Virus record (IMG/VR): IMGVR_UViG_3300021197_001010
Coordinates: 1 to 41,530 of that record
DNA length: 41,530 nt
Direction: 5' to 3' (one strand)
From: a virus
Below, piece after piece: positions 10,434-40,497 of the stretch. The notes beneath the pieces were generated by a model that saw nothing but the letters and a program-made list of their open reading frames with translations, ran no database searches and was not told the origin of the DNA. Both the position numbers and the translations under genes were made by a program. Each line of letters starts with the position of its first letter. The stretch's first letter is position 1.

Positions 10434-13400
10434 ATGCCAGAAATTAAACAGCAGTTTACCGGTGGTAAAATGAACAAGGATGTTGATGAGAGACTTGTTC
10501 CCAACGGAGAATATAGAGACGCGATGAACATACAAGTATCTACTTCGGAGGGGTCAGATGTAGGTACAGCCCAAAATATTCTAGGTAACAAATTAGTAGC
10601 GGATCTCAATTTCTTAAAAGAAGGAGATGTTTGTGTTGGGAGCGTGGCGGACGAAAAAAATGACGCCCTGTATTGGTTTGTTGCTGGAGACTTCACTGTA
10701 GACCAGCAGTCCAACTTAACGGTGCTCGATGGGACAGAAACAGAAGGTATCTCTACCGCAGGGGACTATATATTGGAATATCAAGGTACCGCAACTAATG
10801 TAGTTTTTGCTGATATCTACTACAAAGAAGCCTTTACGTCCAATCCTATCACTCTCCAGATATTTGATAACACTCTTGTTATGCCGTTTAACGATCATGT
10901 TTTTGCCAATGGAGACCTAATCACTTCTATAACTACCACCACCTCTGTTTATTCAGATTTAAAGTTAGAGGTAGTTTCTTTCTCTACGAACAGTGTTGTG
11001 GTATCTCTAGAAAGCCCAGACAGTTTCCCCGCCATCTACACCCAATCAGACATACAGGCGTTTATTGCTGATATAGCTACTGTGTCCACATCAAAAGCGG
11101 TCGCTTTTAGGGAGAAGGCGCTAGGTATTAACAGTAACAAACTAATAACAGGTATTAACATACTAGACGATTTATTATTATGGACTGACGGGGCTACGGA
11201 ACCAAAAAAGATAAACATACCTCGCTGTAAATTAGGGACAAACACTAACCCACTACATGGCACACAACTTATTGTTAATGGTATCGGAAAGGGTATTATG
11301 AAAGAAGAGCATGTGACCGTGATAAGGAAAGGGCCAGCGAAACCACCTGGAATTGGAGACACTTCATCAGGTAGGGGTGGGTTTATTGATGGTAAAACGG
11401 TTTTTGGAGGAAACAACTACGATAATTTTGTAGACCCATTTACTGGGTTGAACAGAGAGGAGGGCACTGACATGTGGATAATAATCGATGAGGACGCCAC
11501 GGGAAACGCTCCAAATCTACTAATAGGGGACGTTCTTAGAATGAATCCTTTTTCTTTAAATGAACCGAACGATTTCACGGCGAGAGTCATTATAAAGCAA
11601 ATAGAGCCAGGTCCTTTTGCTATCCCCTCGTTTGGAACAGCTTCTAGTACCCAAATAGCATATAGAGTTACCATAGCTTCACTATCGAGTGAGGCGGGGA
11701 ATTATATTGAGAAGCATCACTTTAAGTTAGAAGAAGAAGGTAAAGGCTTGTTTAAACGAAAACTACCTAGATTTGCTTGTCGATACAAGTATGAGGATAA
11801 TGAATACTCTCAAGTAGGACCATTCTCTGAGGTTGTGTTTATCCCAGGAGCTTTTGATTATCATCCTAAAAAGGCTTTTAACATAGGTATGACAAATAAC
11901 CTAGAAACACTGACCTTGAGGGATTTTGTAACACCATCACTACCTAAGGACGTGGTGCAGATAGATCTATTATACAAGGAAGAATCTGCCCCTAATATAT
12001 ACGTTATAAAATCTGTAAACAGAGATGATGAGATATGGGAGGCTCCCGGAACTGGATTTGGATTAAAAGGCGCTTACAACGTAACTACCGAGAACATCTA
12101 CCAACAACTTCCATCCAATCAGATTATTCGCCCATGGGACAACGTGCCCAAAAACGCTCTAGCTCAAGATATTGTTGGGAATAGAGTTGTTTATGGAAAT
12201 TATACTCAAGGATACGATATTAGCGACATTACAGGTGAGACGTACTCTCCGTTATTGTCAGCATCTCTAGATGTTAGGGAAAAAAACATAGACAATAAAG
12301 CTCATAAGTCTATAAAGTCATTAAGAGCTTATAACTTCGGGGTGGTATACGGGGATAAATATGGGCGAGAAACACCTGTATTTACTAACAACGATGCGGG
12401 TTTTGAGGTTAGCAAGTCTTCCTCGCCTCAGTCTAGTGCGTTTACAGTATCTCTACAATCACCAGCTCCACCCTGGGCTGATTATTATAAGATATTCGTG
12501 AAGGAGACTTCTAACGAGTATTATAACCTAGCTATGGGGAGAGTTTACGACGCTAGTGACGGTAATGTTTGGATTTCGTTTCCATCGGTAGATAGAAATA
12601 AAGTGGATGAAGATACTTATTTAGTGTTGAAAAAGGGAATCGAAGACAAAGGTGCTGTTCAGGAAGAAGCTAGATATAAAATCGTATCAATAAAAAACGA
12701 AGCCCCCGATTATATAAAAACTGAATACACGTTACTAGCGGAACCTAATTTAGATATAGATGGTTACGCTTTACTCGGAGGCTCATCAACAGGGGCGGTA
12801 GCTACATTCAACTCACCAGCAGAAGCTCCTTACCCTGGGCACACTTCTTTTTCAGTAAAGGTAGATAGATGGGCGGGTCTATACGATCCCACCGCTAACA
12901 ACATGGGTCTTCCTGGGTTAGAAGATTTATGGAATAAACGCGACGGGGATGATATATATGTATCATTCTCTACCCTGGTTAAAGACGCTGGCACTGGAAT
13001 TTGGTATACAAGGGTGTCAGAAAAACGTAAAATTTCTGAGATTAATAAAATAACTACAAGTACCACTGAGGTTTACGTAGTAAGATTCACCGATCCAATC
13101 CGCCCTTCCGAAAGCTGGATTACAGATGGGATAGCTAATAATTTCGCTAACTCTGGACAGTTAAAACCTCACTTCTACAAAAAAGAAGTGTTAAATAAAC
13201 CGGAGTTCGACGGTAGGTTTTTTGTTAAAATTTTAGACGACGATATAATTAGAGCTAATATAGCTAACCCTATACCTTTAGAGCAAGGATACAAAGTGGA
13301 TGCTTCTACCAGTATATTTAAGTTGTCTGACACAAACGCTCCTGGAGTAACAACGGGTACTACAGGGAACTTAACATCCAAACTACCAGAGCATTGGCAA

Positions 13401-16400
13401 TCGCTCCTTAAGTTCGGAGGAAATACTTACGATGGTAAATGGTTTATTGACGAAGCTGCTTTCGCTGGCGTGCAACCTGATAACTCAGACGATATTAGTG
13501 ACTTTATTGCCACAGAAGGGAACACTGAGCTTAGTGATATTTCAAGTTTAAATGACACTTATGAAGACAGTAATGGATTTACTTTCTCCGGGCCTAGTGG
13601 ACGAAGTACAGGTTTAGTGTTTAAGAAGGGTATCCACACAGGGGATTATACAAACTTAACAGACCTAGAGAACGACGGAGGGTATGACTCAACAGGGTCG
13701 AACATGTATTTAAGTTTATCATACTCTACTTTAGCACCCAGCGTAGGAAACACTGGAGCCGGTGGTTACCACGCCAGTCCTAGCTACAGTCATGATGCAA
13801 ATTGGAATGTTGGTAACTCCAATAATTCTTTCACAAGTCACGAAGCTGGTATTGTAAGCAACTTGTCTCCGGGTAAATTATTTAGAATTAAGGGAGATCC
13901 CCAGGTATATAAAATAACTCAGTCAACCAAAAGAAGGTTATACAACTGGAGGGGGGCGAATATCGCACATTCCCTCGTAAACCCAGTAAATGGGAATGCA
14001 GTAAAAACAGATAGGATAGAGTCTCAGGAGACTGGTATGCTAAAGGAATATAACAAAAGACTAAATTATCTCATCAGATATGAGGTGCTTGAGCTCACTC
14101 CGGGGAGCGGTGTACCTGTGGATGCGGTAACAGGGTTCCCTATTGGTAGACTCGAAGACAATACTGCAATTGGTGGGATTAACGCGGTAACAAGTGGTCA
14201 ATTGGAATTTTTAAGTGAATTTAATACTGAGATTGACCCTATAATTAGTGATAACCCCGCTATATTTGAAACCGAGCCGAAAGAAGATGTTGGTTTGGAT
14301 ATATACTACGAAGCAAGTGGACAGCTACCGACTCGACTCACGGTTAACAACTTGGGGGAATTCATATCTATAGGTGCTACTATCACTACGGATGGGGCGT
14401 CTACATTTGCTGATGGAACATTTGTAACCAAAGTTATCGGTAACACTGTTACTCTTTCTAGTAGTATTCTTTATTCGGAATTACAAAGTATAAAACTTAA
14501 ATTTACTAATGACGACGGAACATACTTTTTCGCTGTACCGCTAGAACCGAACAACCCGGGGTCCACAAATAGTATTGAGATTGAGTTAGAACCCGATACG
14601 ATAGGTCTTGGGTGGTTTAACTGTTGGTCATTTAGCAACGGAGTGGAATCTAATCGCATCGGAGATACTTACAACAAGCCGTTTGTTAGAAATGGAGTTA
14701 AAGCTTCTACAATATTATTAGACGCGTACGAAGAGGAAGTGCGTAAATACGGTTTGATTTACTCAGGTATATACAATTCTACATCAGGGGTTAACAACTT
14801 AAACCAATTCGTAGCGGCTGAGAAGATAACAAAAGACATAAACCCAATATACGGTAGTATACAAAAATTACACGCAGGATGGGGACAAGGAGGGGATTTG
14901 ATAGCTCTTTGTGAAGATAGAGTGTTGAAGATATTAGCGAATAAAGACGCTTTGTACAACGCGGACGGAAACACCAACGTAACGTCAACCAACAATGTTT
15001 TGGGACAGGCTATCCCATATTCGGGTGAGTATGGTATATCCAAAAACCCAGAATCTTTTGCTTCTGAAAACTATAGAGCTTATTTTACTGACAAAGTAAG
15101 AAGTACTGTGATGAGACTTTCTGTTGACGGTTTAACGCCTATATCCAACGCTGGTATGCGTGACTGGTTTAGAGATAATCTGCAGTTGAACAACACTTTA
15201 ATAGGTAGCTATGATGATCGACAAGAGGAATACAATTTAACACTACCTGCTTTAAATAAGAGTGTTACTTTTAGAGAGGACACGAGAGGCTGGGTGAGTT
15301 TCAAGTCTTTTGCTCCAGAGAACGCCGTGAGTTGTGCTAGCGAATATTACACTATTAAGAAAGGGAAACTTTGGAAACACCACGTAGAAGATATGCCCCG
15401 AAATACTTTTTACATAGAAGATATCAAAACCCCCTTCGTAGGACCTCACCCTTCCAATGGAAGTGTGGGTAAATATTTTTGGGTGGATAGACAAAACTTT
15501 GTTAATCTAATAAACAACGGGTGGGACGGTTGGAGTGGGTCAACTACTGTTCATTTAAAACAATATAGAAACGGAGAATTAATTTTTGAAGGTGATGTTA
15601 TTGTGTATGGGGTTAGTAGTAGTAATAGTGTCAACAGTATGGTGCATGGAAGAAAAGTAAGTGGTACCGCGGAGGGAGACTTCTTGGTTGGGGATTCTTT
15701 CACAGTAGAATATATGGACAACTTTTACACGAACTCTAAGTTGAGTGTTGTTATGAATAGTAACCCTAGCCATGTCAAGTCGTTTAAGACTATAAACTAC
15801 GAAGGTTCACAATCTAAAATAAACCAAAACTTATTAGATGACCAATACTATAACTTATCAAGTGATAATGGTTGGTATGTTAGTTTGTTAACCACAGATC
15901 AAGAGGAAGGGTCGATTGCGGAGTTTATAAACAAAGAGGGGAAGTGGTACAACTTTATAAAAGGACAATCTATACAGTATGATAACAAAGGAGAAATATC
16001 TACAAACAACAGTGGAGAGATATCGTTCGATCCATCAAGCTTGGCGGTACAGGGGTTAGGAGTTTACGGGGTAGCTCCTGTAGCTGTAACTGGATGCACC
16101 AATCCATTGGCGGATAATTACAATCCACTAGCCACGGTTGATGATGGTAGTTGTATTATACCTCCTCCTCAAACATACCTTTTAGCCGCTATAGACGCTG
16201 GGGCTGTACTGACTCAGGGTGCTGGACTGACTCAATTTTGGACAAAACTACCTGCCGGAAACCTCCCTCCCATAACGTTCCCAGCAGTTCCATCGGTATC
16301 TCATTTGTACGACGCAACAGGAGCGCTGGTCGCTGGTGGGGCAGTTGAGATCCCCGCTGGAAGCTACTCAGGAACACACAAGATACAAGTGCTCAACACC

Positions 16401-16628
16401 GAGGCGGGTAGCACTAGTGAGGTTGAATTCTGGAGCATTGCAGGGTCAACGGAGATTTCACCTAACACTTACTCTGGTGGTGATTTACCCGCGGGAGTAG
16501 AGGTATACATTTATAAAGACGCTCAAGACGTTCCTGGAATCGTTACTTTTGCAGTCAATTTTAATGGGTATATCATGCCCGCTAATGATACCATCTTGGA
16601 TATCAAACTAAATTTCTACTTCGCCTAA
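10434..16628 (+). CDS. Tail stabilisation ('muzzle') protein, 2064 aa, with C-terminal Cys-repeat and adhesin-like end
   Basis: The N-terminus contains KDVDERLVPNGEYRDAMN, the pattern typical of the stabilisation protein of crAss-like phages and distantly like P22 gp10 (packaged-DNA stabilisation). Further typical pieces lie at about residues 1465-1590: LHAGWGQGGDLIALCEDRVL, GEYGISKNPESFA and NAGMRDWFRDN. Large stretches between them are beta-rich (Gly, Thr, Ser, Asn). Near the end, residues C1888-C1907 form one GC..P.A.NYNP.A..DDGSC motif, followed by a Pro-rich linker and a final domain of about 150 aa, probably an exposed adhesin or fibre-docking part. It is predicted to close the tail vertex. 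Its length exceeds what I expect for the family, and the base composition looks richer in G+C than flanking genes. Function is confident at family level; the C-terminal role is inferred. Confidence 0.78.
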   Translation: MPEIKQQFTGGKMNKDVDERLVPNGEYRDAMNIQVSTSEGSDVGTAQNILGNKLVADLNFLKEGDVCVGSVADEKNDALYWFVAGDFTVDQQSNLTVLDGTETEGISTAGDYILEYQGTATNVVFADIYYKEAFTSNPITLQIFDNTLVMPFNDHVFANGDLITSITTTTSVYSDLKLEVVSFSTNSVVVSLESPDSFPAIYTQSDIQAFIADIATVSTSKAVAFREKALGINSNKLITGINILDDLLLWTDGATEPKKINIPRCKLGTNTNPLHGTQLIVNGIGKGIMKEEHVTVIRKGPAKPPGIGDTSSGRGGFIDGKTVFGGNNYDNFVDPFTGLNREEGTDMWIIIDEDATGNAPNLLIGDVLRMNPFSLNEPNDFTARVIIKQIEPGPFAIPSFGTASSTQIAYRVTIASLSSEAGNYIEKHHFKLEEEGKGLFKRKLPRFACRYKYEDNEYSQVGPFSEVVFIPGAFDYHPKKAFNIGMTNNLETLTLRDFVTPSLPKDVVQIDLLYKEESAPNIYVIKSVNRDDEIWEAPGTGFGLKGAYNVTTENIYQQLPSNQIIRPWDNVPKNALAQDIVGNRVVYGNYTQGYDISDITGETYSPLLSASLDVREKNIDNKAHKSIKSLRAYNFGVVYGDKYGRETPVFTNNDAGFEVSKSSSPQSSAFTVSLQSPAPPWADYYKIFVKETSNEYYNLAMGRVYDASDGNVWISFPSVDRNKVDEDTYLVLKKGIEDKGAVQEEARYKIVSIKNEAPDYIKTEYTLLAEPNLDIDGYALLGGSSTGAVATFNSPAEAPYPGHTSFSVKVDRWAGLYDPTANNMGLPGLEDLWNKRDGDDIYVSFSTLVKDAGTGIWYTRVSEKRKISEINKITTSTTEVYVVRFTDPIRPSESWITDGIANNFANSGQLKPHFYKKEVLNKPEFDGRFFVKILDDDIIRANIANPIPLEQGYKVDASTSIFKLSDTNAPGVTTGTTGNLTSKLPEHWQSLLKFGGNTYDGKWFIDEAAFAGVQPDNSDDISDFIATEGNTELSDISSLNDTYEDSNGFTFSGPSGRSTGLVFKKGIHTGDYTNLTDLENDGGYDSTGSNMYLSLSYSTLAPSVGNTGAGGYHASPSYSHDANWNVGNSNNSFTSHEAGIVSNLSPGKLFRIKGDPQVYKITQSTKRRLYNWRGANIAHSLVNPVNGNAVKTDRIESQETGMLKEYNKRLNYLIRYEVLELTPGSGVPVDAVTGFPIGRLEDNTAIGGINAVTSGQLEFLSEFNTEIDPIISDNPAIFETEPKEDVGLDIYYEASGQLPTRLTVNNLGEFISIGATITTDGASTFADGTFVTKVIGNTVTLSSSILYSELQSIKLKFTNDDGTYFFAVPLEPNNPGSTNSIEIELEPDTIGLGWFNCWSFSNGVESNRIGDTYNKPFVRNGVKASTILLDAYEEEVRKYGLIYSGIYNSTSGVNNLNQFVAAEKITKDINPIYGSIQKLHAGWGQGGDLIALCEDRVLKILANKDALYNADGNTNVTSTNNVLGQAIPYSGEYGISKNPESFASENYRAYFTDKVRSTVMRLSVDGLTPISNAGMRDWFRDNLQLNNTLIGSYDDRQEEYNLTLPALNKSVTFREDTRGWVSFKSFAPENAVSCASEYYTIKKGKLWKHHVEDMPRNTFYIEDIKTPFVGPHPSNGSVGKYFWVDRQNFVNLINNGWDGWSGSTTVHLKQYRNGELIFEGDVIVYGVSSSNSVNSMVHGRKVSGTAEGDFLVGDSFTVEYMDNFYTNSKLSVVMNSNPSHVKSFKTINYEGSQSKINQNLLDDQYYNLSSDNGWYVSLLTTDQEEGSIAEFINKEGKWYNFIKGQSIQYDNKGEISTNNSGEISFDPSSLAVQGLGVYGVAPVAVTGCTNPLADNYNPLATVDDGSCIIPPPQTYLLAAIDAGAVLTQGAGLTQFWTKLPAGNLPPITFPAVPSVSHLYDATGALVAGGAVEIPAGSYSGTHKIQVLNTEAGSTSEVEFWSIAGSTEISPNTYSGGDLPAGVEVYIYKDAQDVPGIVTFAVNFNGYIMPANDTILDIKLNFYFA
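16095..16154 (+). repeat. Single copy of the GC...NYNP.A..DDGSC motif inside the stabilisation protein
   Basis: Residues C1888 to C1907 match the consensus of the 19-copy repeat in the secreted protein encoded at 35797-38292: a Cys, then NP, A.NYNP.A, an acidic pair, G and a final Cys. It is a coding motif, not a DNA repeat. Confidence 0.8.
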
Positions 16629-32955: not shown

Positions 32956-34035
32956 ATGGTAAGAAAACTAATAATACTGCTACTGCTTGTATCTAATATA
33001 ACAATAGCACAAACATTTGGTAAAGAAGAGATTAAAGGCTTATTGAAGTTCTCTACTTTTTATGCAGCTGTCAACGGTGGAACGTCACTTTCAGATGTTG
33101 ATGTATTCTCTGTGGATAATGGTTTATCTACGCAGACTATATCAACTCCTTATGATTATAATTTTACCATAGGATTACGTAAGATCGCAAGGTTTGGCTA
33201 TGAAAACAAAGCTCAAACATTTTATGACGGAACGGAATCTAATTACAGTGATGCGGCCACTGTCGGTAAGGTTAAAGGAGTTGAATACTTATTTGAGGTT
33301 AATTACAAAAGACAAGAAGGTGTTGACTACATGGATCAACATCACTTTATTAGATTTAGTTCTGATGATGGTTGCCCAGATGAATTATGTATAAACTTTT
33401 TTGCTTTAAAGCTAGAATATTTAGAAGATGGTTTTGCTGATATCAAGTACTTCGAAGCATCAGAGAGATATAGACATCGTAAAGGTAAAAACCTATCATG
33501 GAACGTTGGTCTTGTTCATAGACTTGCTGAGCCATACGGTTACAACGCTTTGGACGAGTGGATGTTAGATAATGGTGACTTACATTACACGTATTTAGCT
33601 TTACAAGAAGGCTATGAGGTGGATGTGTATAGCAACGAATACTATTCTCCTTCTGGAGAACTTGTAGCTACTAGTGCTGAGGTTTGGGAAGCGGTTGTAA
33701 TACCACAAGTGTTATCTGATTACACTGAAAGGAAAAGAAACGAATTAAAGAAAACTATACAACATTCATTTGTTGTTGGTTTTGATTATTATAAGTATTC
33801 TAAACAAACATGGCTACACGCTTGGGGAAGTTTAATGCCTTATCATTATGATGATGGCAGTGAGTTTAGTTATCACAATTATGTTGATGGACAATGGTAC
33901 GATTATTCAGGTGGATTAATATACGGGATAAAAGTAAACAAAAACTTAGGATACTTTATAGAAGGAAAATATAACAAGTACTGGAACAGAGAATGGTACG
34001 ACTTTAAATTAGGATTAAATTATACAATATTTTAA
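32956..34035 (+). CDS. Phage-encoded outer-membrane beta-barrel-like protein with signal peptide
   Basis: This 359-aa protein starts with a classic signal peptide (MVRKLIILLLLVSNITIAQ, probable cleavage after AQ). The mature part shows alternating aromatic/hydrophobic beta strands rich in Tyr, Trp, Asn and Gly (LSWNVGLVHRLAEPYGY, SFVVGFDYYKYSKQTW, GYFIEGKYNKYWNREW). It ends FKLGLNYTIF, a final strand with terminal Phe, the usual BAM-recognition signature of outer-membrane proteins. Two Cys residues (GCPDELC) could form a disulphide. It is the first gene of the envelope-directed cassette, 34 bp after the giant gene. Possible roles are receptor masking/superinfection exclusion, nutrient uptake or lysis support; the sequence does not decide. 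Sure about export, fairly sure about a barrel. Confidence 0.68.
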   Translation: MVRKLIILLLLVSNITIAQTFGKEEIKGLLKFSTFYAAVNGGTSLSDVDVFSVDNGLSTQTISTPYDYNFTIGLRKIARFGYENKAQTFYDGTESNYSDAATVGKVKGVEYLFEVNYKRQEGVDYMDQHHFIRFSSDDGCPDELCINFFALKLEYLEDGFADIKYFEASERYRHRKGKNLSWNVGLVHRLAEPYGYNALDEWMLDNGDLHYTYLALQEGYEVDVYSNEYYSPSGELVATSAEVWEAVVIPQVLSDYTERKRNELKKTIQHSFVVGFDYYKYSKQTWLHAWGSLMPYHYDDGSEFSYHNYVDGQWYDYSGGLIYGIKVNKNLGYFIEGKYNKYWNREWYDFKLGLNYTIF

Positions 34036-34045
34036 AAAAACAATT

Positions 34046-34489
34046 ATGGCATTTAAAATGAAAGGATCACCAATGCAAAGAAACTTTGGCGTATCACCAG
34101 TAAAACAAAAAGACCCGTTTGAAAAACTTTATAAAAAAGTTAACCCAAAAGATCCAAAAGCAATTAAAGGTAAACACTATCCAAGTAGCGAAACTACAAA
34201 AAAACTACAAAAAGGACCGTATGCAAAGGGTGGTCAAAACGCAAACGTAGCTGAATCAAAAAAATATAAATACCCAAAAAACTTTAACTCAACTGGAAGT
34301 AGTAAAGCTGGTAAGTTTGCTAAAGTAGCTAAAAAAGTTATTGGAAAAGCAGCAAAATTTGCTGGTGGTAAAGCTTTAGGTGTAGCTGGTATGTTAACAG
34401 CTACAAGTTCAAAGGCTGATCAACCTAAAAAAGGAAAAGGAAAAAGAGAATATCCAGGTGGAAAAATAGATTTTACTAAACAAAAATAA
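34046..34489 (+). CDS. Small basic protein, function unknown
   Basis: This 147-aa protein is rich in Lys, Gly, Pro and Ser and begins AFKMKGSPMQRNFGVSPVKQ. That opening seems familiar from small proteins in marine flavobacterial phage genomes. Residues ~95-130 form an Ala/Gly/Lys helix with a hydrophobic face (KFAKVAKKVIGKAAKFAGGK). It could bind nucleic acid or be membrane-active through this amphipathic helix; neither is shown. The stop overlaps the next start as TAATG. Confidence 0.6.
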   Translation: MAFKMKGSPMQRNFGVSPVKQKDPFEKLYKKVNPKDPKAIKGKHYPSSETTKKLQKGPYAKGGQNANVAESKKYKYPKNFNSTGSSKAGKFAKVAKKVIGKAAKFAGGKALGVAGMLTATSSKADQPKKGKGKREYPGGKIDFTKQK

Positions 34490-34770
34490 TGGCAAAAGAG
34501 CTAAACGAAGATACTGGTTTTCAAGTTAGTATTAAAACATTAGTAGGTATTGGAGCAGCTATGGCTACTGTTATTAGTATGTGGTTCATGTTGCAGGCTG
34601 ATATTGCGGAGGCAAGAGAATTACCAGAGCCATTACCACCAGATGTTACTCGTATGGAGTTTGACATGAAAGATCAAATGATTAGACAAACAATAATAAC
34701 AACGCAGGAGGACGTAGAGGAGATGAAGAAGACCCTCGAGAGGATTGAAGATAAACTTTATAAAAGATAA
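34489..34770 (+). CDS. Single-pass membrane protein, possible holin or spanin-like lysis accessory
   Basis: This 93-aa protein has one transmembrane segment at about residues 17-37 (SIKTLVGIGAAMATVISMWF), then a Pro-rich hinge (LPEPLPPDV) and a C-terminal helix with heptad character (EEMKKTLERIEDKL). A short N-terminus, one membrane helix and a charged coiled coil fit small phage membrane proteins near lysis genes, so a holin or inner-membrane anchor role is possible. The endolysin candidate lies 5 kb downstream, so the link is weak. Both ends are TAATG overlaps with neighbours. Confidence 0.65.
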   Translation: MAKELNEDTGFQVSIKTLVGIGAAMATVISMWFMLQADIAEARELPEPLPPDVTRMEFDMKDQMIRQTIITTQEDVEEMKKTLERIEDKLYKR

Positions 34771-35132
34771 TGGAAAAACCTAGTGTTACCTGGAAAATAT
34801 TTAGTATATATCTGTTAGTGTTGTTTTTTATATTTGTATCAGGTAAAGCATCTGGTCAAATTTCTATAGCTCAATTTAACGCTGGCTGGAACGAGGCTAA
34901 TACTGTTGGTTGGGTTCAAAACCTTAACGATTGTAAAACTATATCCTATGTTGACATTACTACTAGTCCTGATATTCAGAAGAAACATAAAATAGCGGTT
35001 ATACCGACTATTATAATATTTAAAGATGGAGAAGAAGTTGCTAGGTTTCAAGCTGATCTTAGTTTTAAAATGCTAGCAACTAAAGAAGAAGTACAAGAAG
35101 AAATAGATAACATATTAATGAGTGACTTTTAA
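34770..35132 (+). CDS. Exported thioredoxin-fold protein lacking the CxxC active site
   Basis: This 120-aa protein has a signal peptide or membrane anchor (IFSIYLLVLFFIFVSGKASG). The remaining ~90 residues follow the thioredoxin order: FNAGWNEAN, a strand SYVDITTSPDIQKKHKI, the cis-proline motif VIPTIIIFKDGEEVARF, and a C-terminal helix. The CxxC normally found after the first strand is absent; only one Cys (NDCKT) is present, so redox activity of the usual kind is unlikely. It may act as a periplasmic binding or chaperone module. The start is coupled to the membrane protein upstream (TAATG). The fold call is good; the function is unknown. Confidence 0.72.
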   Translation: MEKPSVTWKIFSIYLLVLFFIFVSGKASGQISIAQFNAGWNEANTVGWVQNLNDCKTISYVDITTSPDIQKKHKIAVIPTIIIFKDGEEVARFQADLSFKMLATKEEVQEEIDNILMSDF

Positions 35133-35227: not shown

Positions 35228-35527
35228 ATGGCTTACAACAACAAAAGTGTAGGACCACTCAAAATAACAAAAGCATCTTACGATAAGCAAAACACCAAGA
35301 TGAGGTCTAAGCATAAGGCTGAGACTGGAAAGACTCTTGGTGACAAGAAAAAGTCTGGAACAAGCCCGCGTAGAGTAAGTTTTGCGTGTAGATTTGGTAG
35401 TATGCAAGGTGACATGAAAGATAAGGATGGAAGCCCAAGTAAATTAGCTAGAGCTCTTAGCGGATGGGGTTTTGGAAGCAAAGAGGCTGCTAGAAACTTT
35501 TGTAGAAAACATAAAAAGAAAAAATAA
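35228..35527 (+). CDS. Small basic protein with SFACRFGSMQG / GWGFGS motif
   Basis: This 99-aa protein is strongly basic (ends RKHKKKK). A conserved-looking core reads RRVSFACRFGSMQGDMKD, then ARALSGWGFGSKEAARNF. I associate this pattern with a small protein family of unknown function in marine phages, but give no accession because I cannot check one. Possible roles are nucleic-acid binding or a packaged basic protein. It is coupled to the following gene by TAATG. Confidence 0.62.
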   Translation: MAYNNKSVGPLKITKASYDKQNTKMRSKHKAETGKTLGDKKKSGTSPRRVSFACRFGSMQGDMKDKDGSPSKLARALSGWGFGSKEAARNFCRKHKKKK

Positions 35528-35796
35528 TGGCAACAAAACACGAAGATTTAAAAAAAGTAGTAAGTGAGTTAGAAGGTGCTGTAAAAGCACATAGTAGACA
35601 AGCTAAAACTATAAAGCAACACATTAAAGATATGAGCGGTCCATTTAAAATGAAATCTCCCTTGAAAGGTAAAAGAGGATTATGGGATAATATACACGCT
35701 AAGAGAAAAAGAATTAAAGCTGGTTCTGGAGAAAAAATGAGAAAACCAGGTGATAAAGGCGCACCTTCAGCTAAAGACTTAAGAGACTCACAATAA
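35527..35796 (+). CDS. Small basic protein with GLWDNIHAKRKRIKAGSGE motif
   Basis: This 89-aa protein has an N-terminal helix with heptads (LKKVVSELEGAVKAHSRQAK) and a basic C-terminal part with KRGLWDNIHAKRKRIKAGSG, then KPGDKGAPSAKD. The 'GLWDNI.AKRKR' element recurs in small proteins of many marine phages in my recollection, with no known role. The next gene starts directly after the stop, without a gap. Confidence 0.6.
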   Translation: MATKHEDLKKVVSELEGAVKAHSRQAKTIKQHIKDMSGPFKMKSPLKGKRGLWDNIHAKRKRIKAGSGEKMRKPGDKGAPSAKDLRDSQ

Positions 35797-38292
35797 ATGA
35801 AAAAACTACTACTATTATTATTACCATTTATAGCTTTAGCACAAGGTCCACCTAACTGTGTACCTACGACTATTATTATAAACCTTGATCAGTATCAAGG
35901 CGAAACATATTGGACTATAGAAGATACTAGCGGTAATATGCTAACCTATGGTACTAACTATGGTTCACAACCTGATTACGCTTCTGTTGTAGAGCAAAGA
36001 TGTTTACCACCAGGCCCATTAACTTTTACGATATATGATGCGTACGGAGATGGGTTAAATGGATCAATGTGGGGTGGTTTAGATGGATCTTATTATGTGG
36101 TACAATGTTATGACACTTTAGTTTCTGGTACAGACCCAGCTTTTGGTAACGACACAGCTCACGCTATTTTAGTAGCTCCATGCCCACCGATATTCGGTTG
36201 TATGGATTCTTCTTATGTAGAATTTAACCCTAGAGCAGACACAAGCGACGGCTCGTGTTCTACGTTAGTAGTATTTGGCTGTATTGATTCTACTATGTAC
36301 AACTATGATTCTACTGCTAACACGATGTCTTTAGTTCCATCTTGTGATTATACTTTAACGCTAACAGATTTAGTTGGAGATGGTTGGGCAGCATCAAATT
36401 TAGAGGTAACTCAAGGGGATAGCGTTTGGAATTTTACATTAGATACAGCTGCTTACTCTCAAGAATATACTATAAACTTAAAAGCACCTCAAGAGGTTTC
36501 ATTTAAGTTCTCGATAACACAACAAGCTTTTCAATCTGCAGCTCACTGTGGATTTAAGCTGACAAACCCATTAGGTATGACTATGATAGAGGTTATACCA
36601 CCGTTTATACAACCTTTACTTAAACGTACTGTACCAACTTATTGTGGTGATTACTGTATTGATAGAATATTTGGCTGTATGGATTCTTTAGCATTAAACT
36701 ATGTGGATACAGCAAATACTGCTTTACCATGTTTTTACGTTCTTGGTTGTACTAACTCTTCTTACTTAGAATATTATACACAAGGTTTTACGGCTGACAC
36801 TAGCGATGGATCTTGTCAGACACAAGCTGTTTGGGGTTGTACTTCTTCAAGCGCTTTTAACTACGATCCACAAGCCAACATAGATAATGGTGGTTGCATA
36901 GCCGTTGTAGTTGGTTGTATGCAGCCTTTAGCGTTTAACTACAACCCTCAAGCGAACACACCAGATACTTGTATTGCTGTTATTTATGGGTGTATGAGCT
37001 CTATAGCTTTTAATTACGACTCATTAGCTAACACAGACGACGGTAGTTGTATAAGCGTGATACAAGGTTGTACTGATAGCACTATGTTCAATTACTCACC
37101 AAGCGCTAACGTAGAGGATAGTTCTTGTGTTTCTTATATATACGGCTGTATGGATCCAACTATGTTTAACTATAGTGCTTTAGCTAATACTGATAACGGT
37201 GCGTGTATAACTTTTGTTTATGGTTGTGTAGATTCCACGATGTGGAATTACGATCCATTAGCTAACACTGATAACAACAATTGTATACCTTATATTTACG
37301 GTTGTACAAATCCTATTGCATTAAATTATGATGTATTAGCTAATACAAATAATTTCAGCTGTATACTACCAATTTATGGCTGTATGGATCCTACGGCGTT
37401 CAACTACAACCCACTGGCTAATGTTGATAACAACGCTTGTATACCTGTTGTTTTAGGTTGTACTGATCCAAGCGCTTTAAATTATAACGCTAACGCTAAT
37501 ACAGATGACTTTAGCTGTATATCACCTATATATGGTTGTATGGATTCAACTGCGTTTAATTACAATAGTTTAGCAAATGTAGATAATGGAGCTTGTATTC
37601 CTGTAATCTTAGGATGTACAGACCCAACGGCTCTTAACTATTGTGATAGCTGTAATACTGATGATTTTAGCTGTATACTACCAATTTATGGTTGTACTGA
37701 CAGTACTATGTTTAATTATAATTCCTTAGCAAATATTGATAATAGCTCTTGCGTTCCTTACATATATGGTTGTACGAACCCTTCTATGCTCAATTACAAT
37801 CCATCGGCAAACACGGAGGATTTTAGTTGTATTGCTTATATTTATGGGTGTATGGATAGTACCGCTCTTAACTTTGATTCACTTGCTAACACGCCTAACA
37901 ACTCGTGCATTAAAATCGTTATGGGTTGCATGGATCCAAACGCGTATAACTATGAATCAACTGCTAACGTTAACGATTCTATATCTTGTTTGTATGACGC
38001 TAATTGTTTTACTGGTCCAGGAAATCCTTATTGGCTAAACAATGAGTGTTACGCTTGGGTTATTTCAGTGGACGATTACTGTTGCGAAAACGAGTGGGAT
38101 ACAATATGTCAGTCAACTTATGATTACTGTGAAGGTAATTGGGTTGGACCGGTGTTAACAAGAATACAACAAACAAAAGAACTAATGATGATTACTGACT
38201 TATTAGGTAGGCCAGCAAAACAAAGTAAAAACAAACTTCTATTTTACCTTTATAATGACGGTACTGTAGAGAAAAAATTAATCAAACAATAA
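35797..38292 (+). CDS. Secreted Cys-rich 19-repeat protein with T9SS-type C-terminal sorting domain
   Basis: This 831-aa protein has a signal peptide (MKKLLLLLLPFIALAQ). Next comes a beta domain with YDAYGDGLNG, common in Bacteroidota secreted proteins. From residue 134, 19 repeats of the form GC.D..A.NYN..AN.D..SC occur, contiguous from 293 to 731, mostly 24-28 residues each with two Cys. A Cys-rich module (YCCENEWDTIC, about 760-775) precedes the tail. The last ~45 residues (MITDLLGRPAKQSKNKLLFY, then LYNDGTVEKKLIKQ) resemble the Bacteroidota 'Por secretion' C-terminal sorting domain. Predicted path: Sec export, then T9SS release or surface attachment. Role unknown: surface coat, receptor mask or matrix binding. 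Repeat count and Cys pattern are seen; T9SS use is inferred. Confidence 0.8.
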   Translation: MKKLLLLLLPFIALAQGPPNCVPTTIIINLDQYQGETYWTIEDTSGNMLTYGTNYGSQPDYASVVEQRCLPPGPLTFTIYDAYGDGLNGSMWGGLDGSYYVVQCYDTLVSGTDPAFGNDTAHAILVAPCPPIFGCMDSSYVEFNPRADTSDGSCSTLVVFGCIDSTMYNYDSTANTMSLVPSCDYTLTLTDLVGDGWAASNLEVTQGDSVWNFTLDTAAYSQEYTINLKAPQEVSFKFSITQQAFQSAAHCGFKLTNPLGMTMIEVIPPFIQPLLKRTVPTYCGDYCIDRIFGCMDSLALNYVDTANTALPCFYVLGCTNSSYLEYYTQGFTADTSDGSCQTQAVWGCTSSSAFNYDPQANIDNGGCIAVVVGCMQPLAFNYNPQANTPDTCIAVIYGCMSSIAFNYDSLANTDDGSCISVIQGCTDSTMFNYSPSANVEDSSCVSYIYGCMDPTMFNYSALANTDNGACITFVYGCVDSTMWNYDPLANTDNNNCIPYIYGCTNPIALNYDVLANTNNFSCILPIYGCMDPTAFNYNPLANVDNNACIPVVLGCTDPSALNYNANANTDDFSCISPIYGCMDSTAFNYNSLANVDNGACIPVILGCTDPTALNYCDSCNTDDFSCILPIYGCTDSTMFNYNSLANIDNSSCVPYIYGCTNPSMLNYNPSANTEDFSCIAYIYGCMDSTALNFDSLANTPNNSCIKIVMGCMDPNAYNYESTANVNDSISCLYDANCFTGPGNPYWLNNECYAWVISVDDYCCENEWDTICQSTYDYCEGNWVGPVLTRIQQTKELMMITDLLGRPAKQSKNKLLFYLYNDGTVEKKLIKQ
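36196..37989 (+). repeat. Array of 19 coding repeats (Cys-flanked NYN motif)
   Basis: Translated units begin with GC(M/T/V/I) and end at a Cys about 20-24 residues later, with a central (F/L)NY(N/D) and AN.D/E.(F/G/N/S)(S/A)C. Units 1 and 2 lie near residues 134-185, and units 3-19 run without interruption from 293 to 731. DNA identity between units is moderate, so this is an old array rather than a recent slippage product. Units alternate between YGCMD-type and LGCTD-type, suggesting two-unit duplications. Confidence 0.85.
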
Positions 38293-39537: not shown

Positions 39538-40037
39538 TGACTTATACAGGAAAAGTAAATCAAATAAGACACAAAGCACTTAGGTTAACACCAACTATAA
39601 CAGGTGTTCAGTATGCTAATAACGATATTTTGTTTGACACAACTGAAATGGCTAACGCAGTTGAATCTCCTGGTGGAGCTTCTAAGCTTGTCAACGTATC
39701 TTTGTGGACAAAGTCTAATGATGTTTTTGATATAGAGTTATTGTTTTTTCAGGTAAACCAATCCATGGGTACTGTAAATGCTGGTAGAAATGTATCTGAC
39801 GCAGACTGGGCAACGGCTAAATATTTAGGACACTTAGTTTTAGATGGGTCTGAAGAGGACTACAATTACGGTGGTGGTAGAATATTTACTTTTGCAGAAA
39901 GACCAGCTCTACCAATGGTGTTGCAAGCTGAAGCTGGTTCTACTAGTGTATATTGTGCTGCTTTTTTAAGCGGAACAGATGTTACTCCATCTTTTTCAGT
40001 TGGAGATATTGAATTAATTTTTGGACTTGAATTATAA
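39537..40037 (+). CDS. Putative minor structural protein
   Basis: This 166-aa protein reads as a beta-sandwich (KLVNVSLWTKSNDVFDIELL and FFQVNQSMG), with SDADWATAKYLGHLVLDGSE in the middle and SFSVGDIELIFGLEL at the end. Neighbours and composition suggest a virion surface protein. The start is coupled to the upstream stop (TAATG), and the endolysin candidate starts 4 bp downstream. Confidence 0.62.
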   Translation: MTYTGKVNQIRHKALRLTPTITGVQYANNDILFDTTEMANAVESPGGASKLVNVSLWTKSNDVFDIELLFFQVNQSMGTVNAGRNVSDADWATAKYLGHLVLDGSEEDYNYGGGRIFTFAERPALPMVLQAEAGSTSVYCAAFLSGTDVTPSFSVGDIELIFGLEL

Positions 40038-40041
40038 TAAC

Positions 40042-40497
40042 ATGATAAGTAAACACATAAGCGATAAGGAAGGAGTGTATAGCATAACAGCGACACGTAA
40101 AGGTTTAGACAACACGCCAAACCAATTTGAGTTAGCTAACATGAAGGAAATAGCTGAGCAAGTATTTGAACCATTAAGAGAATGGGTTGGTGGACCTATT
40201 AGGATTAATAGTTTTTATAGGGGTAAAGCTTTAAATAAAGCTATTGGTGGATCAACATCGTCTCAACACTGTAAGGGTCAAGCTATGGATATAGATGATG
40301 GTGGGTGTAAAAAGACTAATGCTGAGATGTACGCTTGGATTAAAGAGAATTTAAACTTTGATCAAATGATCTGGGAGTTTGGTGATGATAAAAATCCAAA
40401 CTGGGTACATGTTAGTTATGTCAATGAAATTGACAATAGAAATCGATGTTTAAAAGCCTATAAAGAAGGTGGTAAAACAAAATACAAAGTAATATAA
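40042..40497 (+). CDS. M15-type zinc peptidase, probable endolysin
   Basis: This 151-aa protein is predicted to cleave peptide bonds in peptidoglycan at lysis. It carries the M15/VanY-like zinc motif SSQHCKGQAMDIDD (His and Asp ligands) and a later WVHVSY supplying the third ligand. RINSFYRGKALNKAIGG before the motif matches the 'SGYRS..LN..VGG' segment of peptidase M15A-type endolysins. No signal peptide is present, so a holin or another route is needed. I chose the ATG at 40042 over an in-frame one at 40021: the later start lies just after the upstream stop and follows the A/T-rich leader TTATAATAAC, while the earlier one would overlap coding sequence. Confidence 0.85.
   Translation: MISKHISDKEGVYSITATRKGLDNTPNQFELANMKEIAEQVFEPLREWVGGPIRINSFYRGKALNKAIGGSTSSQHCKGQAMDIDDGGCKKTNAEMYAWIKENLNFDQMIWEFGDDKNPNWVHVSYVNEIDNRNRCLKAYKEGGKTKYKVI

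Follow-up and report, generated by a model that had tools for sequence, protein, structure and literature searches.

Phage T5 makes Llp, a small envelope lipoprotein proposed to shield the phage receptor late in infection. Among phages of Bacteroidetes, Cryophage encodes proteins with type A sorting domains of the type IX secretion system (T9SS), for which use of the host system was proposed and superinfection exclusion was raised as a suggestion (Bellas et al., 2020, PMC7468147). ORFs with, or near, T9SS sorting domains have also been reported from gut crAss-like phages, including the crAss-BACON ORF (PMC6949934). Here, we analysed the whole 41,530-base virus record IMGVR_UViG_3300021197_001010 (hereafter, the window), which carries a gene for a Cys-repeat protein with a Sec signal and a putative C-terminal sorting tail. 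In our reading, to which we assign a probability of roughly 0.65, the product is exported by the T9SS to the cell surface, where it remodels the infected cell, the shielding of receptors being its most probable, and still tentative, role.

Phage background and the repeat protein

Judging from its core genes, the window is a crAss-like phage, in the broad sense, of a Bacteroidota host. TerL matches phrog_6681 (3.9e-170), the portal matches phrog_6547 (2.1e-151), and a 2064-aa ORF matches crAss muzzle models (1.9e-11 and 7e-7), which together make up the homologous TerL, portal, and muzzle of crAss-like, Pervagoviridae-type phages. Among named phages, TerL and muzzle matches were found in only 87 records, nearly all of them phages of Flavobacterium, Cellulophaga, Tenacibaculum, and Maribacter (including phi38:1), plus one unclassified spring-water phage. 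Since TerL places Elemovirus and Pervagoviridae phages nearest among the named relatives, formal membership of the Crassvirales is not claimed. Our scan of viral contigs detected relatives of the repeat protein in at least 220 stretches; 80 loci were kept, and 67 full-length viral relatives were compared. The muzzle is present in 41 of 50 relative-bearing contigs, and large contigs, of 231 and 298 kb, are among those without it. Deposited phages yielded no full relative of the repeat protein; Marine virus AG-345-P14 and a virion protein of S-CAM3 matched in the repeats only. The first-pass annotation had regarded phage use of the T9SS as unusual; with relatives in so many stretches, and with phage-borne T9SS cargo already on record (PMC7468147), it is not a one-off.

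The repeat-protein gene (35797-38292) is an intact ORF of 831 aa, running from ATG to stop; this gene, its parts, the neighboring genes of the cassette, the endolysin gene, and the muzzle module described below all lie on the + strand. By hydropathy, its N-terminus (aa 1-16; 35797-35844) is a typical Sec signal, MKKLLLLLLPFIALAQ, and a similar start is kept in 67/67 aligned viral relatives, which bears out the signal peptide claimed earlier and gives the whole family the N-terminal Sec signal of T9SS cargo. A predicted beta-sandwich domain with no Pfam match follows (aa 21-126; 35857-36174; pLDDT ~90). The GC...C / N[YF]N modules then extend over aa 134-735 (36196-38001), the array being interrupted in the AlphaFold model by a second beta domain (aa ~182-285; 36340-36651). 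Next to the array is a small Cys-rich helical domain (Cys-Cys-Trp), DDYCCENEWDTICQSTYDYC, which is marked by invariant alignment columns and predicted helices (aa 737-779; 38005-38133), and the protein ends in the short tail, with three predicted beta strands (aa 785-831; 38149-38289). The YCC domain gave a marginal PDB sequence match to SPRING (E 0.011).

The repeat protein contains 53 Cys in total and 20 'GC' dipeptides, one of which lies within a module, so that there are exactly 19 GC...C modules, with a period of 26 aa in the main block. The count of 19 Cys-flanked NYN repeats in the first-pass annotation is thus exact, but strict NYN/NFN occurs only 6 times and the motif is better given as N[YF][NDSEA]. 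The pattern GC-x(3-8)-N[YF] has 17 matches in the protein, whereas none of 2000 shuffled versions of it had more than 3. DNA identity between repeats is only 60-76%, which rules out recent slippage or an assembly artefact and means that the array is old and maintained at the protein level; the Cys modules are also kept in homologues of the repeat protein. AlphaFold returned two confident beta-sandwiches (aa 22-126 and ~182-279), the small helical Cys domain, and the three strands of the tail, and the structure prediction that had been proposed for the repeat array gave it at low confidence. A PDB sequence search with the whole protein gave no match, and Foldseek with the whole model gave only weak beta-sandwich matches (TM <0.1). 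These weak matches follow from a whole-model pTM of 0.36, and we therefore claim no fold family. An enzymatic role was considered and rejected, as no catalytic domain was recognised.

The module is not confined to this gene. A single copy (GCTNPLADNYNPLATVDDGSC; 16092-16154) lies within the muzzle-like virion protein of the window (10434-16628), and Cys modules are also present in an S-CAM3 protein annotated as virion structural. Several copies of the Cys/NYN module were seen in large ORFs of relatives with no obvious signal peptide (L009, L010, L023, L048, L053, and L069). The module is therefore common to putative virion proteins and to the exported protein. This distribution, and the location of the gene within the half of the genome that carries the structural genes, would suit a virion-associated adhesin, decorating tail or capsid, that leaves the cell by export, joins virions while the cell lyses or afterwards, and then aids attachment. 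We consider this unlikely, as a Sec signal and an export tail, present in all 67 relatives, are needless for a virion part assembled in the cytoplasm, and the partners of the repeat gene in its cassette are envelope proteins, not tail proteins.

A cassette of predicted envelope genes

Three further genes make up the cassette with the repeat gene. One encodes a predicted outer-membrane beta-barrel of 359 aa with a signal peptide and a terminal Phe (32956-34035), one a 93-aa protein that has a single TM segment and whose C-terminus resembles a coiled coil (34489-34770), and one an exported or membrane-anchored thioredoxin fold without CxxC (34770-35132; PF00085, 7.4e-6). The barrel assignment draws on the signal peptide, at least 12 amphipathic strands, a terminal aromatic residue (Phe in 52 of 66 homologues), and a barrel-like model (pLDDT 73) whose structural matches are all outer-membrane barrels, with NanC at the top. 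The BFVD entry A0A516LKJ4 also matched the barrel model (E 1.5e-21, 21% identity). CxxC was found in none of 69 homologues of the thioredoxin-fold gene, and hence the product is not classed as a thioredoxin enzyme; its C-terminus, ...MSDF, is strongly conserved. An 89-aa basic protein (35527-35796) abuts the repeat gene, matches phrog_16028 (unknown function; 2.9e-20), and is conserved in few relatives.

Relatives of the barrel, TM, and thioredoxin-fold genes each adjoin the repeat gene in ~70 of 80 viral loci, the loci having been chosen by similarity so that their co-occurrence is partly shared descent. Viewed from the barrel side, all four genes are present in 55 of 80 loci; one further barrel locus has the repeat gene with TM and thioredoxin-fold genes not detected (a total of 56/80 with the repeat gene), and all 24 barrel loci without the repeat gene end no more than 2.9 kb downstream of the barrel. 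The cassette is also kept in two phages without a muzzle match, of 231 kb (L063) and 82 kb (L060), from which we argue for selection, and its conservation extends to marine crAss-like phages and to larger ones. Apart from one outlier at 25%, almost all barrels in the set share 55-94% identity, above the conservation of the repeat protein, and the barrel has at least 572 relatives in viral contigs. No barrel was found in deposited phage genomes by tblastn, nor any of the cassette genes in the deposited phages searched. We found no description of the cassette in the open literature, outside of which most subscription papers and preprints fall.

Among host-labelled genomes, the barrel occurs in 2 of 17. 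The L082 barrel lies on a phage-like contig, next to genes resembling those for DnaB, RNR, and amidase, and L082 was rejected as a host relative: it is a phage contig (DnaB, RNR, and amidase plus the cassette) binned in the Flavobacteriales MAG G052. Similarly, L081 at first resembled a host relative, and the MAG that holds it has its barrel gene on another contig. The barrel-bearing contig L139 in the Winogradskyella MAG G051 may be another case of a phage contig. On these comparisons, we regard the barrel, TM, and thioredoxin-fold genes as phage-specific and strongly conserved.

Conceivably, the cassette could be a Bacteroidota-adapted module for lysis or outer-membrane disruption, with the repeat protein as its surface part. 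In the window, the cassette is just upstream of, and does not include, the endolysin gene (40021-40497; phrog_894, 2.8e-31), and in L082 it adjoins the amidase; the one-TM coiled-coil protein could function as inner-membrane spanins do, and the barrel might perforate the outer membrane. Nevertheless, we found no match to spanin, holin, or lipobox families, the endolysin is located elsewhere in many loci, and lysis has no need of a surface-exported protein of 19 modules, all of which makes this reading improbable. We give still less credence to a host surface gene that benefits the infected cell (adhesion, aggregation, or nutrient capture) and plays no part in phage competition. All the modules are common to Flavobacteriales surface proteins, as such an origin would have it, but the repeat protein has no recognised enzyme domain and its phage-specific, strongly conserved barrel, TM, and thioredoxin-fold neighbors point to a viral function.

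The C-terminal tail in viral relatives and host genomes

From the letters alone, the C-terminus had been likened to a T9SS sorting domain, and a profile search of residues 785-831 against T9SS models had been named as a check. The search gave no match, the outcome formally set down as refuting, here for one sequence: the tail of the window falls below every model cut-off, TIGR04183 and PF18962 included, and the short tail class as a whole is recognised by no Pfam or NCBIfam model. Proof must therefore rest on the relatives. The 47-aa tail is a real conserved element (alignment A3, 45 sequences), carried by 47 of the 67 full-length relatives, the window protein among them. The other 20 have a T9SS type A tail (TIGR04183/PF18962) at the same place, with best matches of 1.3e-14 for TIGR04183 and 8.5e-15 for PF18962. 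On a tree built without the tails, the tail type switched at least 8 times, and 7 of the switches are forced by strongly supported branches. The exchange can be followed in a single pair, L046 (canonical tail) and L054 (short tail), whose bodies are 88% identical over 634 aa and whose DNA is 92% identical over the 483 bp before the tails, after which the tails differ. Repeated exchange on one passenger is what would be expected of functionally equivalent sorting signals. Like T9SS cargo signals, the tail has an extreme C-terminal position that is independent of the passenger. All 76 tail matches in the viral loci sit on repeat-protein ORFs, i.e., there is one tail-bearing gene per locus, and above-cut-off TIGR04183 matches number one per contig where present (35 phage contigs).

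The phage short and canonical tails, aligned alone by hhalign, gave 3.8%; with host sequences added, the value was 22% (E 9e-4), in register. The joint profile score of the two was 21.1, compared with a maximum of 18.9 in 60 shuffled controls, and the shared register takes in the DLLGR motif and the final strand. A common origin of short and canonical tails is suggested, not proven, by these alignments.

Of 17 marine Bacteroidota genomes, almost all of them labelled Flavobacteriales, 16 matched the phage short-tail profile, with 5-42 copies each, and the same genomes have 34-67 canonical tails. SprA was found in 13 of the 16 short-tail genomes, which are incomplete MAGs or SAGs. When 66 distinct host ORFs were read, the short tail was located 0-2 residues from the C-terminus, and 51 of the 66 had a recognisable Sec signal. 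The passengers, with domains read from ten chosen host proteins, are unrelated (GH18 (chitinase), PHB esterase, CotH, beta-lactamase-like, nuclease, cyclophilin, and carboxylesterase), and in these ten the tail lies outside every Pfam match. Of 63 host tails, 10 gave a TIGR04183 match with NCBIfam that stayed under the cut-off. The host tail consensus reads KKLLKITDLLGRETxxxxNxxLFYIYDDGTVEKKIIIE (G052-G067; L098-L137), on diverse, mostly Sec-exported proteins. Present in many copies per T9SS-positive genome, at the C-terminus of Sec-exported proteins that are otherwise unrelated, it is probably an undescribed T9SS-type sorting tail; no description of it was found in the open literature, a scope that leaves most subscription papers and preprints outside. 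Across Bacteroidia, the short tail is present in only 7 of 149 genomes, which makes it a lineage trait that points to the host of the phage.

The weak profile similarity to type A tails and the lack of a model match would agree with a structural end-piece that carries no sorting signal and leaves the protein periplasmic, which is highly improbable for a tail that many unrelated Sec-exported proteins carry, without exception at their very C-terminus, and that is repeatedly exchanged with true type A tails. The proposed resemblance to a T9SS domain thus holds for the conserved tail and its exchange with true type A tails in relatives, and fails for the window sequence itself against the models. 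The broader proposal, of a Sec- and T9SS-exported, Cys-rich phage protein built of host-type modules, is likewise supported by the family, with the tail of the window itself unmatched.

Proposed role and comparison with known systems

From these sequence features, T9SS export of the repeat protein appears very likely, and its location at the surface likely. The protein would cross the inner membrane via Sec and the outer membrane via the host T9SS, guided by a tail at its C-terminus that mimics the one with which the host lineage sorts its own proteins. Its rigid, disulphide-rich array, capped by beta-sandwiches, would then sit on or near the cell surface and, jointly with the barrel, the one-TM protein, and the inactive thioredoxin-fold protein, reshape the envelope during infection; parts at the inner membrane, in the periplasm, at the outer membrane, and on the surface together suggest a function at the level of the envelope. 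The purpose may be to shield or occupy phage receptors late, which would spare superinfecting or progeny phage from being lost on the same cell or on debris, an effect like that of T5 Llp. Late expression is inferred from the place of the gene among the structural genes. That receptors are shielded late in infection is a tentative proposal, with odds that we place somewhat below even, and we prefer it as a function to a virion adhesin and a lysis aid, in that order. The masking, superinfection block, and decoy listed in the first-pass annotation are all hypothetical effects.

More generally, and at close to even odds, a very common group of marine Bacteroidota phages may encode an envelope-spanning machine of four proteins, the outermost part of which is exported by the T9SS through an undescribed class of short signals, this class being one of the main T9SS tags in streamlined marine Flavobacteriales and so far unannotated. 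If so, widespread ocean phages would place a protein of their own on the infected cell through the export machine of the host, a use so far noted for one cryoconite phage. With the tail unmodelled, annotation of abundant marine bacteria would overlook exported enzymes by the dozen in each genome, the restriction of the tail to a lineage would predict the host of the phage, and the cassette would be a defined gene set for superinfection control in Bacteroidota.

Among described systems, T5 Llp is a phage-made envelope protein, as the repeat protein would be; the two have no sequence relation. Cellulophaga phi38:1 (Pervagoviridae) and the Flavobacterium Elemovirus phages share homologous core genes and their order (TerL, portal, and muzzle-like), and in the regions examined they have no cassette, Cys modules, or sorting tail. 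The crAss-BACON ORF has another passenger domain, and neither Cys modules nor an envelope cassette are described for it (PMC6949934). With the TIGR04183/PF18962 tails, the short tail has in common its position, Sec dependence, a predicted beta-rich fold, a DLLGR-like motif, and a terminal strand in register, whereas the tail of the window is without the YPNP strand and the LDxSxLxxGxY segment. Cryophage is alike in encoding T9SS-type cargo, but its cargo, from a single phage, comprises three variable proteins that are enzymes or PA14 proteins (PMC7468147), whereas each phage considered here has a single repeat protein, conserved and non-enzymatic, in a conserved envelope cassette and in most cases with an unmodelled short tail. 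In essence, phage T9SS cargo has been reported before (PMC7468147), and the present sequences are set apart by the conserved envelope cassette and the short tail.
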